In this document: positions 27,307 to 49,968 of the stretch, piece by piece
Numbering within the stretch: position 1 is the first letter of the stretch
Layout: every line of letters starts with the position of its first letter
DNA from: Hyphomicrobiaceae bacterium
Lineage (GTDB): Bacteria > Pseudomonadota > Alphaproteobacteria > Rhizobiales > Xanthobacteraceae
Reading direction: 5' to 3'
NCBI GenBank assembly: GCA_021324465.1
Contig: JAJPJB010000046.1
Span: forward strand, 1-55,641
Length of the DNA stretch: 55,641 nucleotides
Notes under the pieces: model-generated
The model's input: only the letters and a program-made list of their open reading frames with translations
The model's database searches: none
What the model was told of the DNA's origin: nothing
Program-made: the position numbers and the translations under genes

Positions 27307-27353
27307 GGCGCGTTCAACGCGACGCGCCGAATTGAGCTTCCAAGTGAGCTGTC

Positions 27354-28784
27354 ATGCCGACTGAGATTTTGATGCCCGCCCTTTCGCCGACTATGGAGAA
27401 GGGCAATCTTGCCAAGTGGCTCAAAAAGGAAGGCGATCCTGTCAAATCCGGCGACGTGATCGCCGAGATCGAGACCGACAAAGCCACAATGGAAGTGGAA
27501 GCGGTCGATGAGGGCACGCTCGGAAAGATTCTGGAGCCGGAAGGCACCAACGATGTGGCGGTCAATACGCCGATCGCCATGATCCTTGCCGACGGCGAGG
27601 ATGCGAGCGCATTGAAGGCCGCTATACCGGCAGCCGGACCGTCGGAAGAACCCTCGCGACAGCAGAAGGGGGCAGAATCGCCGCCGGCGGAAAGGCCCGA
27701 GCCGGCGAAGAAGGCCGCAGCCCCGGCGCCGGCTCCGACCGGCACCGCCAAGCCGCCCGCGGCCGCTCTTGCGCCGGAACCAGAGGTCCCGGAAGGTACC
27801 GAGTTCGTCACAATGACCATGCGCGAAGCGTTGCGCGACGCCATGGCGGAAGAAATGCGCCGCGACCCAGACGTCTTCATTCTGGGCGAAGAGGTCGCGG
27901 AATATCAGGGCGCCTACAAAGTGACACAGGGCCTGTTGCAAGAATTCGGCGCCCGGCGCGTGATCGACACGCCGATCACGGAGCACGGCTTTGCCGGCGT
28001 TGGCATCGGCGCCGCGCTCGACGGCCTTAAGCCGATTGTCGAATTCATGACCTTCAACTTTGCCATGCAGGCGATGGATCAACTCATCAATTCTGCGGCG
28101 AAGACGCGCTATATGTCGGGCGGGCAGGTGCAGGTTTCGATCGTCTTCCGCGGCCCGAACGGACCCGCCTCGCGCGTCGCCGCCCAGCACAGTCAGGATT
28201 ATTCGGCCTGGTATTCGCACATTCCCGGCCTGAAGGTGATCGCGCCATCGACGGCGGCCGACGCCAAGGGGCTGCTTAAGGCCGCGATCCGTGATCCCAA
28301 TCCGGTGATCTTTCTCGAAAATGAAATTCTCTACGGCCATTCTTCGCCGGTACCGAAGCTCGACGACTACGTGCTGCCGATCGGCCGCGCGCGCGTCGTG
28401 CGCTCCGGAAACGATGTCACTATCGTCGCCTGGTCTATGGGCATGACCTATGCGCTAAAGGCTGCGGACGAACTGGCCCAAGACAATATCGAGGCTGAAG
28501 TTATAGATCTGCGCACGCTCAAGCCAATGGACACGCAAACCATCGTCGAGTCGCTGAAGAAGACCGGCCGCGTGGTCACCGTCGAGGAAGGCTGGAAACA
28601 ATCGGGGGTGGGTGCCGAAATCGCAGCCTCCCTGATGGAGGAGGCTTTCGACTATCTCGATGCGCCAGTGATGCGAGTCTGCGGCAAGGATGTGCCGATG
28701 CCGTATGCGGCCAATCTGGAAAAGCTGGCGCTACCGTCTGTTGCTGAGGTCGTCGAGGCGGCAAGAGCGGTCTGTTATCGATGA
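27354..28784 (+). CDS. pdhB: Pyruvate dehydrogenase E1 beta with N-terminal lipoyl domain
   Basis: A 476-residue protein. Residues about 1-80 are a biotinyl/lipoyl domain with the lipoylation motif [10 protein letters not shown] (Lys in DKA). A Pro/Ala/Glu linker follows (about 85-145). The transketolase-like E1 beta part starts at [15 protein letters not shown] and includes [30 protein letters not shown] and the C-terminal [18 protein letters not shown]. The lipoyl domain on E1 beta is a known trait of alphaproteobacterial PDH. The start overlaps no other gene; its stop overlaps the following small frame as ATGA. Confidence 0.96.
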
Positions 28785-28986
28785 GCAATGATTCCGCCGA
28801 AGGCGCCTCGCCATTCGAGCCGCTCGCCGTTCCGCCCGCCGCGCCGATGTCGCGGGCCATAGCGGGCGCATTTGCGCGCTTGAGACTTCGATGCACCAAG
28901 ACGATGTGGTCCAAAAGGTCTGGGCGATGTTCGAGGCCGAAATGGAACGTCCTGCTGATCTTGGCACAACAAAAGCAGTAAGCTGA
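28781..28986 (+). pseudogene. Decayed small gene between pdhB and pdhC (DUF5076-like remnant)
   Basis: A frame starting in the pdhB stop (ATGA at 28781) encodes 66 residues, beginning [22 protein letters not shown] and ending in unlikely Arg/Lys/Cys-rich sequence. A second plus-strand frame, with no start codon, reads RADVAGHSGRICALETSM, then HQDDVVQKVWAMFEAEMERP and ADLGTTKAVS to a stop at 28984-28986, and looks like real protein. From memory, relatives carry a DUF5076 gene here with a similar AMFxAEMxxPxDxG end. The two pieces would be its N- and C-terminal ends, with the middle lost and the frame shifted. The family match is unverified. Confidence 0.45.
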
Positions 28987-28987
28987 C

Positions 28988-30352
28988 ATGCCCATCAATA
29001 TTCTCATGCCGGCTTTGTCGCCCACGATGGAGAAAGGCAATCTCGCCAAGTGGCTCAAGAAAGAGGGTGACACGGTCAAGACCGGCGACGTGATCGCCGA
29101 GATTGAGACCGACAAGGCGACGATGGAATACGAAGCCGTTGATGACGGTACGCTGGCGAAGATCGTCGTGCCTGAGGGCACACATGATGTCGCGGTCAAC
29201 CAGCTGATTGCAGTGCTTGCGCAGGAAGGCGAAGATGTGAAAGCGGCGGCGGCAGCGGCGGGCGCGGTTGCAGCTGCGCCCACTGTGGCCAAGCCGCCGC
29301 CCGCCCCGTCACTTGCGCCCTCCGGCAATGGCAAGGCTCAGCCTGCCGGCACAACGACCCGCCTCGGCATGCATGCTGCACCGCCTATGCAGGGCGCGCC
29401 GATCGCAGCGCGCGAAGGCGCAAATCGCGTCTTCTCATCGCCGCTGGCGCGGCGCTTGGCGAAAGAGGCCGGCATCGATATCGGCCGCATCCAAGGCACA
29501 GGCCCGCATGGTCGCGTGATCGCGCGCGACGTCGCGACCGCGAAGGAAGGCGGTATGCGCGCGCCCGCCATGGCACCCGGCGCCGCCCCGGCACCGATCA
29601 TTGCGCCATCGATGTCGGATCAGCAGATCCGCGCGCTCTACAAGGAGGGTAGCTACGAGGTCGTGCCGCATGACGGCATGCGCCGTACCATCGCGCAGCG
29701 GCTGACCGCTTCGATCCAGACCATTCCGCATTTCTACCTTACCGTCGACTGCGACATCGGCAGGCTCATCGCGGCACGCGAAGAGATCAATGCGCTTGCG
29801 CCCAAGGACAAGGATGGCAAGCCGACCTACAAGCTTTCGGTCAACGACTTTGTCATCAAGGCGCTGGCGCTCGCGCTGCAGCGCGTGCCCGACGCGAATG
29901 TGAGCTGGACCGAGGCCGGAATGCTCAAGCACAAGCAGTCCGACATCGGCGTTGCGGTTGCCATGCCGAACGGCCTGATCACGCCGATCATCCGCAATGC
30001 GGAGACCAAGTCACTGGCGACAATCTCCAACGAGATGCGCGATCTCGCCATCCGCGCACGCGACCGCAAGCTCAAGCCGCACGAATATCAGGGCGGCACT
30101 TCGGCCGTATCCAATCTGGGCATGTACGGCATCAAGGATTTCACCGCCGTGATCAATCCGCCGCACGCGACCATTCTTGCGGTCGGCGCAGGGGAGGAGC
30201 GCGCCGTTGTCCGCGATGGCAAGATCGAGGTTGCGCATATGATGAGCTGCACGCTGTCATGCGATCACCGCGCCGTGGATGGCGCTCTCGGCGCCGTGCT
30301 GATCGGGGCCTTCAAATCGCTGATCGAAAATCCGGTGATGATGCTGGTGTAA
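28988..30352 (+). CDS. pdhC: Dihydrolipoamide acetyltransferase (PDH E2)
   Basis: A 454-residue E2 core subunit. One lipoyl domain (about 1-80, [10 protein letters not shown]) is followed by an Ala/Pro linker, a peripheral-subunit-binding domain (about 150-185: FSSPLARRLAKEAGIDI, GTGPHGRVIARDV) and the catalytic domain (about 225-454) with the active-site motif DHRAVDGALGA. It transfers acetyl groups from lipoyl to CoA and forms the PDH scaffold. The lipoyl domain is nearly identical to that of PdhB over the first 60 residues, pointing to a duplicated domain. The next gene starts five bases after its stop. Confidence 0.97.
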   Translation: MPINILMPALSPTMEKGNLAKWLKKEGDTVKTGDVIAEIETDKATMEYEAVDDGTLAKIVVPEGTHDVAVNQLIAVLAQEGEDVKAAAAAAGAVAAAPTVAKPPPAPSLAPSGNGKAQPAGTTTRLGMHAAPPMQGAPIAAREGANRVFSSPLARRLAKEAGIDIGRIQGTGPHGRVIARDVATAKEGGMRAPAMAPGAAPAPIIAPSMSDQQIRALYKEGSYEVVPHDGMRRTIAQRLTASIQTIPHFYLTVDCDIGRLIAAREEINALAPKDKDGKPTYKLSVNDFVIKALALALQRVPDANVSWTEAGMLKHKQSDIGVAVAMPNGLITPIIRNAETKSLATISNEMRDLAIRARDRKLKPHEYQGGTSAVSNLGMYGIKDFTAVINPPHATILAVGAGEERAVVRDGKIEVAHMMSCTLSCDHRAVDGALGAVLIGAFKSLIENPVMMLV

Positions 30353-47721: not shown

Positions 47722-48579
47722 ATGTCCCGCATCGCTTACGTCAATGGCCAATATCTTCCGTTTCGCGAGGCCAAGGTCCATGTCGAGGATCGCGGCTATC
47801 AGTTCGCCGATGCGGTGTACGAAGTTTGTGAGGTCAGGGACGGCCGTCTCATCGACCAACGCCGCCATCTGCAGCGGCTGCAGCGTTCGCTGTCCGAACT
47901 GCGCATCCGTCCGCCGATCTCGTGGGGAGCCCTCGACGTCGTTCTGCACGAAGTCGTGGCGCGAAATCGTATCCGCTACGGCATCGTTTATCTACAGATC
48001 AGTCGCGGCGTAGCGCGGCGCGACCACGCCTTCCCGCCGGTTTCCGTCGAGCCGAGCCTGGTTGTAACGGCGCGGCCCCTGAACAGAACGCGCAATGAGG
48101 CGCTTGCGGCAAGCGGCATCGCGGTTGTCACGGTTCCCGACAATCGCTGGGGCCGCGTTGATATCAAGACGACCAGTCTGTTGCCGAACGTCTTGGCGCG
48201 CCAGGCCGCCGTTGAGCAGGGCGCCCGTGACGCCTGGTTCGTGGACGATGCGGGCGCCGTCACCGAAGCCTCCTCGGCCAATGCCTGGATCGTAACGGCG
48301 TCCGGCGCCGTGGTGACCCGGCCGGCCGACCACGCGATCCTGCGCGGCATCACCCGCATGGTCCTGCTCGATGTCATTAAGGCTCAGGCGCTGACCTTCG
48401 AGGAGCGCAGCTTTACCGTCAAAGAGGCCTATGCGGCACGGGAAGCGTTCATCACTTCGGCGAGCCAAATCGTGCTTCCGGTGGTCCGGATCGATGGTCG
48501 GCCGATCGGGGACGGCAGACCGGGGCCGCTTGCAACCGCGCTGCGGCGCGAATTTCATAAATTTGCCGAGGCGAGCTGA
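47722..48579 (+). CDS. dat: D-amino-acid transaminase
   Basis: A 285-residue fold-type IV PLP aminotransferase. VNGQYLPFREAKVHVEDRGYQFADAVYEV would exceed citation length, but its pieces, EDRGYQFADAVYEV and RGVARRDHAFP, are diagnostic. The PLP lysine is in RVDIKTTSLLPNVLA, and TEASSANAWIV with GITRMVLLDV complete the site. It interconverts D-amino acids and oxo acids, supplying D-Glu or D-Ala. Its last 38 codons (48445-48557) are repeated at 49344-49456, downstream of vapBC, with about 94% identity. The position between ntrX and hfq is usual for this lineage as I recall. Confidence 0.88.
   Translation: MSRIAYVNGQYLPFREAKVHVEDRGYQFADAVYEVCEVRDGRLIDQRRHLQRLQRSLSELRIRPPISWGALDVVLHEVVARNRIRYGIVYLQISRGVARRDHAFPPVSVEPSLVVTARPLNRTRNEALAASGIAVVTVPDNRWGRVDIKTTSLLPNVLARQAAVEQGARDAWFVDDAGAVTEASSANAWIVTASGAVVTRPADHAILRGITRMVLLDVIKAQALTFEERSFTVKEAYAAREAFITSASQIVLPVVRIDGRPIGDGRPGPLATALRREFHKFAEAS
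48445..48557 (+). repeat. Direct repeat copy 1 (inside the dat 3' end)
   Basis: 113 bp that match 49344-49456 with 7 mismatches by eye, about 94% identity and no gaps. This copy is part of the intact dat gene and encodes AFITSASQIVLPVVRIDG and the following residues. Weaker similarity continues about 15 bp further. Together with copy 2 it brackets the vapBC module; the two are 899 bp apart. Confidence 0.93.
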
Positions 48580-48583
48580 AGCT

Positions 48584-49018
48584 CTAATCAGTCAAAGGAT
48601 TGACGATTTTCAGGTCGGGAAAGCGGCTGAAGTCGCGATCGGCCGACCACAATTCGCGCACCCCATGCAGCCGGCAAAGCGCAGCGATGCGGGCATCATG
48701 GACCTGCGCGCCCATAATCCGTCCGGCGGTCAGGATTGACTGCAATTGCCGCCAGTATCCATCGGCTTCCGCGAGCAATGTCAGGCCGGGCGCTTCCATC
48801 CATGCCATGACGGCATCAATGGCCAGGCTGATCGGGGTTGGTACTCCGTAGATGCGCGGATTGGTGACGACACTGAAAAACTCGTGAATGCAGGGCCAAG
48901 GGATCGCCCAAGCCGAACGATTCTCTGCCAATTCCGTCACCCGCCGCAGTGCGGCGGCATGAAACGGGGCATCTTCGCGATGGGCGTAAACCAGGATGTT
49001 GGTGTCCACGGCAATCAC
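48584..49018 (-). CDS. vapC: VapC-family PIN-domain toxin
   Basis: A 144-residue PIN-domain ribonuclease. Acidic catalytic residues are visible in VDTNILVYAHRED, CIHEFFSVV, QVHDARIAALC and SADRDFSRFP. VapC toxins cut RNA, often tRNA, and are held inactive by VapB. The GTG start at 49018 overlaps the vapB stop by four bases (GTGA), as usual for such pairs. The gene runs opposite to dat and ends four bases after the dat stop. The whole module lies between two copies of the dat 3' end. Confidence 0.88.
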   Translation of the reverse strand: MIAVDTNILVYAHREDAPFHAAALRRVTELAENRSAWAIPWPCIHEFFSVVTNPRIYGVPTPISLAIDAVMAWMEAPGLTLLAEADGYWRQLQSILTAGRIMGAQVHDARIAALCRLHGVRELWSADRDFSRFPDLKIVNPLTD

Positions 49019-49269
49019 TCGCCGTGACCCCCGCGTCCCTCGTAGATCATCTCGACAATCCGGTTCCAGTCGGCGCCCTGCAGCTCTGGGCGCAGACCGT
49101 TACCGGCAAACGTGACTTGCCGCAGACGAAACGGCACTTGCCGCTTCTTCGCGGCAATGACAAGTCTGAGTCCCTGTTCAACGAGCGCCCGTAGCGTCGT
49201 GCCCTCGCGCGCGGCGATTTTTTTGGCGTCGCGCAGCAGCGGATCGGCAATGTCGAGCGTCGTTTTCAC
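49015..49269 (-). CDS. vapB: VapB-family antitoxin
   Basis: An 84-residue partner of VapC. From the GTG at 49269 it begins MKTTLDIADPLLRDAKKIAAREGTT, split here as KTTLDIADPLLRDAKKIA and AREGTT, a ribbon-helix-helix type DNA-binding N-terminus. The C-terminal half (LRPELQGADWNRIVEMIYEGRG) should bind and block the toxin. An upstream in-frame ATG (49329) adds 20 residues without homology. It precedes and overlaps vapC. It probably autorepresses the pair. Confidence 0.82.
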   Translation of the reverse strand: MKTTLDIADPLLRDAKKIAAREGTTLRALVEQGLRLVIAAKKRQVPFRLRQVTFAGNGLRPELQGADWNRIVEMIYEGRGGHGE

Positions 49270-49343
49270 TGTGGCAACATATATGGGCTTTACAATATGG
49301 GTCGCAATATGGGCGACGTTAGAGCGCAAAGCAAGCTTGCCGG

Positions 49344-49456
49344 GCGTTCATCACTTCGACGGGCCAAATCGTGCTTCCGGTGCTACGGCTCGATGGCCGG
49401 CCGATCGGGGACGGCAGACCGGGGCCGCTCGCAACCGCGCTGCGGCGCGAATTTCA
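49344..49456 (+). pseudogene. Displaced second copy of the dat 3' end (repeat copy 2)
   Basis: A 113-bp fragment nearly identical to 48445-48557. In the dat frame it reads AFITSTGQIVLPVLRLDG and continues to ATALRREFHRFAGDN without a stop at the dat position. Differences from copy 1 are mostly silent or conservative (V/L, I/L, K/R), so it derives from a working dat gene. It has no start and no upstream coding part, and is a remnant downstream of vapBC. Confidence 0.9.
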
Positions 49457-49668
49457 CCGTTTTGCGGGGGACAATTGGCAGAACTGTCAACTTATTCCGC
49501 GAATCTGCGCCGAACTGCGCCCAGAGCTTGCCGTCAGACTTGCCCCTAACTTGGGCTTGCATCGCTTGCCGTGGCGCCCTCTAATGGCTGGTGCTTCGGG
49601 TCCGACCGGCCCGATATGTGGGTATGGGGCCGAATGCAACCGCACGGACGAAGGCAAAAGAAACGACT

Positions 49669-49689
49669 CCGCGGGGCAGGGGCCCGCGG
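49669..49689 (+). promoter_or_regulatory. GC-rich hairpin in the hfq leader
   Basis: Perfect 7-bp arms CCGCGGG (49669-49675) and CCCGCGG (49683-49689) around GCAGGGG, ending 24 bp before the hfq ATG. There is no following T-run, so it is not a classical terminator. It might control translation or stability of hfq mRNA; this is inferred from position. The rest of 49457-49713 shows nothing else I recognise. Confidence 0.4.
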
Positions 49690-49713
49690 TACAAAAGAAC
49701 GGAACAACCGGCC

Positions 49714-49968
49714 ATGGCAGCCGACCGCGCACAAAATCTACAAGATACCTTCCTCAATCACGTCCGCAAAAACAAGATTCCGCTCACTATCTTTCTGGTG
49801 AACGGAGTGAAGCTGCAGGGCGTTGTCACGTGGTTCGATAATTTTTGCGTGCTGCTGCGTCGCGACGGGCATTCGCAGCTCGTCTACAAGCACGCAATTT
49901 CGACCATTATGCCGGGCCACCCGGTGCAGCTGTTCGAAGGCGCCGAAGAAGCGCCGTCCGGGGAATAG
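49714..49968 (+). CDS. hfq: RNA chaperone Hfq
   Basis: An 84-residue Sm-like RNA chaperone. Sm1 is [24 protein letters not shown] (cited here as [19 protein letters not shown]), with Gln and Lys of the proximal RNA face, and Sm2 is the YKHAIST block ([12 protein letters not shown]). It forms a hexamer that pairs small RNAs with mRNAs. ATG 49714 was chosen by homology; 41 open codons upstream are not similar. hflX starts six bases after its stop, giving the usual hfq-hflX unit. Confidence 0.97.

Follow-up and report, generated by a model that had tools for sequence, protein, structure and literature searches.

How chromosomal toxin-antitoxin (TA) pairs that carry neither an integrase nor a transposase reach chromosomes, and how they leave them again, is an open question. 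In the window, the 55,641-nt stretch of DNA analyzed here (contig JAJPJB010000046.1 of a Hyphomicrobiaceae bacterium, genome G000), a vapBC pair lies between the end of dat and a second, truncated copy of that end, with hfq beyond (Table 1). The locus provides a clean and testable footprint, as the site is empty in 16 of 18 readable congeners and occupied in G000 and in one congener, G019, with repeats of different lengths; the unit is also predicted to leave without a scar when the repeats recombine. As a footprint, the arrangement resembles that of insertion through ordinary recombination, and it is missing from most sister species compared here.

Table 1. Features of the dat-hfq region in G000 (positions are those of the window)
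Feature	Position	Strand	Evidence or remark
dat, D-amino-acid transaminase, intact	47722..48579	+	NCBIfam NF005209, 417 bits (cut-off 320); Pfam PF01063
Direct repeat copy 1, within the dat 3' end	48445..48571	+	113-nt core 48445-48557
vapC, predicted toxin (PIN-domain ribonuclease) of a type II TA pair	48584..49018	-	PF01850, 45.1 bits (cut-off 23.6); TIGR00028, 102.9 bits (cut-off 73.6)
vapB, putative antitoxin	49015..49269	-	ORF list; PF09957, 20.8 bits, below the cut-off of 23.4
Region upstream of vapB	49270..49343	.	Similarity to G019 reaches about 49335 (match to query 25-936)
Direct repeat copy 2, dat 3' end cut short before the final codons and stop of the gene	49344..49470	+	
Native dat-hfq spacer	49471..49713	+	Sequences compared by eye
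hfq	49714..49968	+	PF17209; NF001602 and TIGR02383 above cut-offs

NCBIfam models were passed by dat and hfq, and also by hflX, and the PIN domain of VapC exceeded both of its cut-offs. VapB was more weakly supported, as its PF09957 score stayed below the cut-off and the NCBIfam search gave no match for it. It shares 71% identity over 76 residues with the VapB of G019. We chose the GTG start; upstream of it, the frame continues without a stop as far as a TTG at 49329. PADLOC matched neither protein. The vapB gene lies directly upstream of vapC with a 4-nt overlap in the ORF list, and dat and vapC stand tail to tail with their stop codons 4 nt apart. Between the repeats, the ORFs of at least 50 aa comprised only vapB, vapC and short overlapping frames; judged by size, none would accommodate a usual integrase, in line with the preliminary description. 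No tRNA genes were found in the window. The 2.4-kb locus gave a single match in its own genome (99.67% complete, 107 contigs), and a plasmid collection searched with it returned only two weak partial matches. The spacer behind the second repeat carries a GGGCTTGCATCG...TCTAAT element that, by eye, precedes hfq in most congeners.

The two direct copies are 90% identical over 127 nt and start 899 nt apart. Their 113-nt core (48445-48557 and 49344-49456) shows 93.8% identity (106/113, seven differences; BLAST E between 1e-42 and 3e-45). The preliminary description had reported two repeats of about 94% identity lying 899 bp apart, which is correct with the distance taken from start to start; the gap between the cores is 786 nt and contains vapC and vapB. 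It had also taken the first repeat for the true end of dat. This repeat does lie inside the dat 3' end, but its core makes up 113 of the final 135 nt, and another 22 nt of the gene follow it. The second repeat is the fragment behind vapBC that had been described. A self-BLAST of the window (E ≤ 1e-6) gave one other pair only, a 78% direct repeat at 27343-27565 and 28977-29199. It represents the similar starts of two neighboring ORFs with putative lipoyl domains and looks ordinary.

Six codons differ within the core. In four of them the fragment encodes another amino acid (A to T, S to G, V to L and I to L), and the other two differences are silent, which contradicts the earlier impression of mainly silent or conservative changes. 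The four amino-acid-changing differences all occupy first codon positions. At 48460, 48463, 48484 and 48490, the unusual, amino-acid-changing base sits in the fragment, with 17 or 18 of 18 congeners matching dat; at 48498 and 48559 the unusual base sits in dat, with 16 and 17 of 18 congeners, respectively, matching the fragment. At third codon positions, 3 of 37 differ between the two copies of G000; when dat of G000 is compared with the nearest of 17 congeners measured, 106 of 239 differ. The dat ends of 18 congeners reach at most 80.5% identity to copy 1 and at most 77.9% to the fragment. Based on the unusual amino-acid-changing states, which would be expected in an unconstrained piece, and on the distances among copies and congeners, the fragment is best understood as part of the G000 lineage's own dat that has been drifting freely.

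To place this arrangement within the genus, 20 genomes including G000 were compared, one per species. The region from dat to hfq was readable in 18 of the 19 others, the exception being G002. The preliminary description had proposed that a unit inserted at dat left the gene intact and an extra end downstream; it suggested looking for strains with a single dat end and no vapBC, whereas an old fixed arrangement would show vapBC and both repeats, equally diverged, in all close relatives. The between-species comparison favored the former, as 16 of the 18 readable congeners have a single dat end and no vapBC. In 12 loci from other genera of the family, the dat-hfq spacers measured 147 to 480 nt and gave no tblastn match to vapBC. 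Together with the 16 congeners, these loci make the single dat end, most simply, the older state.

The same gene order, dat, vapC, vapB, dat end and hfq, was found in G019. Its dat-end copy spans 72 nt at 97% identity (70/72), with the rarer base in the fragment both times, and terminates with the dat stop codon before running straight into the spacer. The stretch before this fragment showed no dat similarity (175 of 500 shuffles were as good). Since this upstream similarity is missing and the fragments differ in length (about 127 nt in G000 and 72 nt in G019), the vapB-side joints of the two genomes differ. In a third genome, G008 (locus L077), a vapC stub consisting of the last vapC codons directly follows dat (0 of 500 shuffles as good). 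The three nearest sister species of G008 on the dat tree are without this stub, which lies after position 3388 of L077 and is followed by spacer. Counted from the dat stop, the end of vapC lies at 4 nt in G000, 16 nt in G019 and 10 nt in G008. Among the PIN-domain matches listed, 14-20 per genome fell in G005, G008, G009, G013, G018 and G019, and 0-7 in the 14 remaining genomes of the genus, including G000.

Whether these occurrences trace back to one event was addressed with the dat and VapBC sequences. In both G000 and G019, the two dat ends within the genome resemble each other much more than either resembles the dat of any congener. The VapBC proteins of the two genomes share 67% identity over 220 columns and are sisters with moderate support (SH-aLRT 87 for VapC alone; 94/85 for VapB plus VapC). 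In a tree of the dat body, with the repeat left out, G000, G019 and G008 stand in different parts of the genus, and the minimum number of changes on the dat tree is three, or two without G008. Forcing all three genomes together was rejected (p 8e-65), and G000 plus G019 as one clade was not clearly rejected (p 0.078). Because the copies of each genome are mutually closest although the vapBC pairs differ at one third of residues, the dat-end duplications appear to be young and lineage-own. The link between dat and vapBC appears to predate both duplications or to have been transferred laterally among members of the genus. A simple recent event confined to one strain does not account for the arrangement in G000, since the order recurs in G019 with a repeat that is different and shorter.

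Our preferred reading of these observations, to which we give an even chance, is that DNA with a dat end plus vapBC came from a very close relative, was circularized, and integrated by one crossover in dat. The donor piece would already have held the dat 3' end next to vapBC, its ends would have been joined, and the circle would have entered the chromosome by a single homologous crossover inside dat. The predicted product is a complete dat, vapBC, a dat end cut at a random joint and the native hfq spacer, with the joint falling 135 nt from the dat end in G000 and 72 nt in G019. A crossover in the opposite direction, from one repeat to the other, would take out the 899-bp unit scarlessly, and this would explain the patchy presence. 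TA pairs confer stability by addiction, and vapBC is predicted to do so here. In favor of this route we count the repeat and its anatomy, the empty sites, the version in G019, the mutual closeness of the copies and the sister relation of the VapBC pairs. Against it, the G000 fragment is without the last dat codons and stop, which the route predicts and which G019 has, so that the route has to invoke a small deletion at a later time. The donor must already have had dat next to vapBC, and the first capture is thus left unexplained. The presence in G000, G019 and G008 also needs at least three changes on the dat tree. Any donor strain would have to be both unsampled and very close.

The individual steps of this route have a laboratory precedent. 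An E. coli conjugation assay with linearized DNA, one end of which was homologous to lacZ, is described as giving 60 Lac- clones (PMC3240628). A PCR product for a gene-end duplication was obtained from 56 of them, 14 sequenced clones had duplications of 109-950 bp, and the remaining 4 were one-ended illegitimate events (PMC3240628). The authors' account, as given there, is a single crossover of a circular molecule with part of the homologous segment lost, most likely by cutting, partial degradation and recircularization (PMC3240628). Applied to a piece with a dat end and vapBC, these steps would yield the order of this locus. The events were reported as rare, at a few per 10^9 recipient cells (PMC3240628), and this counts against the model.

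The young appearance of the duplications could equally belong to an old duplication homogenized by gene conversion. The main rival explanation is concerted evolution of one old insertion: vapBC entered with a dat-end duplication in the ancestor of the genus, was inherited vertically and lost many times, and conversion kept the two ends alike. The site and orientation common to G000, G019 and the vapC stub of G008 fit this history, the sister VapBC pairs are compatible with an old split at their 67% identity, and the repeats offer, in principle, an easy way to lose the unit through recombination. By our reading of the dat tree, it requires about six or more losses against three gains, and conversion would have had to act in both lineages. 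At the vapB-side joint of G019, no old dat sequence precedes the 72-nt fragment. A degenerate dat end would also be predicted in G008; a candidate behind the vapC stub was not supported, as 3 of 500 shuffles were as good but real-sequence controls did as well in 33 of 354 and 15 of 342 cases. Overall, we consider this history possible but doubtful.

Repeats of gene ends around other TA pairs bear on the remaining explanations. By record titles, kin of the window's VapC occur in many phyla (80 of 167 relatives retained). A survey of this VapC subfamily covered 88 loci, of which 16 were left out for short flanks and 72 were scored against shifted placements. Direct repeats around the pair (E ≤ 1e-6) were found at 6/72 loci against 8/981 shifted placements (Fisher p 0.00016), and at 4/70 loci after removal of the window and G019 (Fisher p 0.006); these p values are only indicative, because the threshold was set after a first run (E ≤ 0.01; 10/71 against 19/253, a weaker contrast), module limits differed slightly and the placements overlap. 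A general PIN survey took 80 loci from the first 82 matches listed, two of which lay in a stretch already taken, and 77 loci were left after exclusion of 3 with short flanks. Here, 2/77 loci against 6/639 shifted placements gave no clear general excess (E ≤ 1e-6), and flanking of all PIN TA pairs by long repeats is unsupported.

Among individual loci, L282 (G026:C43, 1859-3737), a striking case from the general PIN survey, has radC, an RHH-PIN pair and then a second copy of the radC 3' end, 231 nt long at 85% identity. This is the same anatomy as at dat with a different TA pair in the same bacterial family; the contig ends 122 nt later. At L180 (3670-4513), a 44-nt, 98% copy of the 3' end of an M16-peptidase gene lies beyond a kin vapBC whose vapB frame is apparently broken, and this is the only plain gene-3'-end case among the four other VapC-subfamily loci (L180, L154, L146 and L182). 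At L154 (3272-4613), a kin vapBC precedes a phosphoglucomutase-family gene, glmM-like by our reading, and 149 nt of the 5' end of the gene are duplicated at 98%. An older vapB remnant (78%) lies upstream, which allows a tandem-duplication reading there. The other two loci are ambiguous: L146 lies in broken pieces of what is, by our reading, a putative ATPase, and the repeat of L182 is a 27-nt palindrome and likely a dispersed element. Gene-end repeats around other TA pairs are seen at radC, and less clearly at the M16-peptidase gene and glmM.

These cases, together with the lineage-own repeats of different lengths, fit separate de novo insertions, in which related vapBC modules entered each lineage with their own target duplication and the dat end served as a hot spot; this would be insertion with long target duplication in its strict sense. 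We regard this as improbable, since the same gene end, the same orientation and sister VapBC pairs would hardly coincide unless the site were strongly preferred, and the unit holds no ORF of transposase or integrase size. Tandem duplication is common, and at this locus it would have taken in the dat end together with vapBC, the second vapBC disappearing afterwards; the vapB remnant beside the glmM-like repeat of L154 offers a parallel. This history is very unlikely here, as no second vapB or vapC trace was found near either locus (best extra tblastn match, E 0.06) and the G019 fragment ends at the stop codon with the spacer following directly. The earlier suggestion that one copy came from the dat of another strain fails for the sampled congeners, as both copies are far from all 18 measured and much closer to each other.

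Returning to integration of a circle by one crossover in dat, a wider proposal can be attached to it. Small TA pairs may be spread and lost as minicircles, with the end of a neighboring core gene acting as a home-made attachment site that RecA uses, so that an integrase is unneeded; the dat end would be one such site in this genus, used more than once. We offer this generalization tentatively and think it rather unlikely to hold.

In integrase-driven islands at gene 3' ends, the arriving DNA makes the gene whole again and shifts its former end away. The dat locus resembles them in its intact dat end and the extra dat end downstream. Unlike such islands, the dat unit has no integrase-sized ORF between its repeats, and a fixed att core is absent, given the different repeat lengths in G000 and G019. 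Among the literature matches listed, titles and abstract beginnings did not describe vapBC between copies of a gene's end. A ParDE-like pair of Microcystis aeruginosa PCC 7806, beside MaOC1, is described between two identical 152-bp direct repeats, and thus likewise as a TA pair just after a gene with repeats on both sides (PMC7935541). Unlike at dat, the first of those repeats, as described, begins 14 bp after the gene stop, holds a 16-bp inverted repeat and does not copy the gene end (PMC7935541). As at dat, the recircularized DNA integrated in E. coli lies next to a gene end that is duplicated over a variable length; unlike dat, the case described concerns a plasmid construct followed through conjugation in the laboratory and no natural locus (PMC3240628).

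Insertion with long target duplication is recognized by long direct repeats of the host target flanking the unit, here 113-127 nt of the dat end, and by a single-copy empty target in relatives, here the 16 of 18 readable congeners compared between species. As first described, its cargo is a restriction-modification system, and at dat it is vapBC. Insertion of this kind by restriction-modification genes has reportedly been treated by Nobusato et al. 2000 and Furuta et al. 2010. Published accounts describe restriction-modification genes inserting with long, variable target duplications on the order of 100 bp (PMC3874152, PMC3031569). As far as these accounts go, the likeness lies in a small addiction-type gene set, no known mobile element and long, variable target duplications of about 100 bp; the dat locus differs in carrying vapBC, in using a gene 3' end that is left intact as the target, and in having a second lineage, G019, with its own version at the same site. 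The dat-vapBC locus belongs with insertion with long target duplication; its cargo is a TA pair, and its target is the 3' end of a gene.
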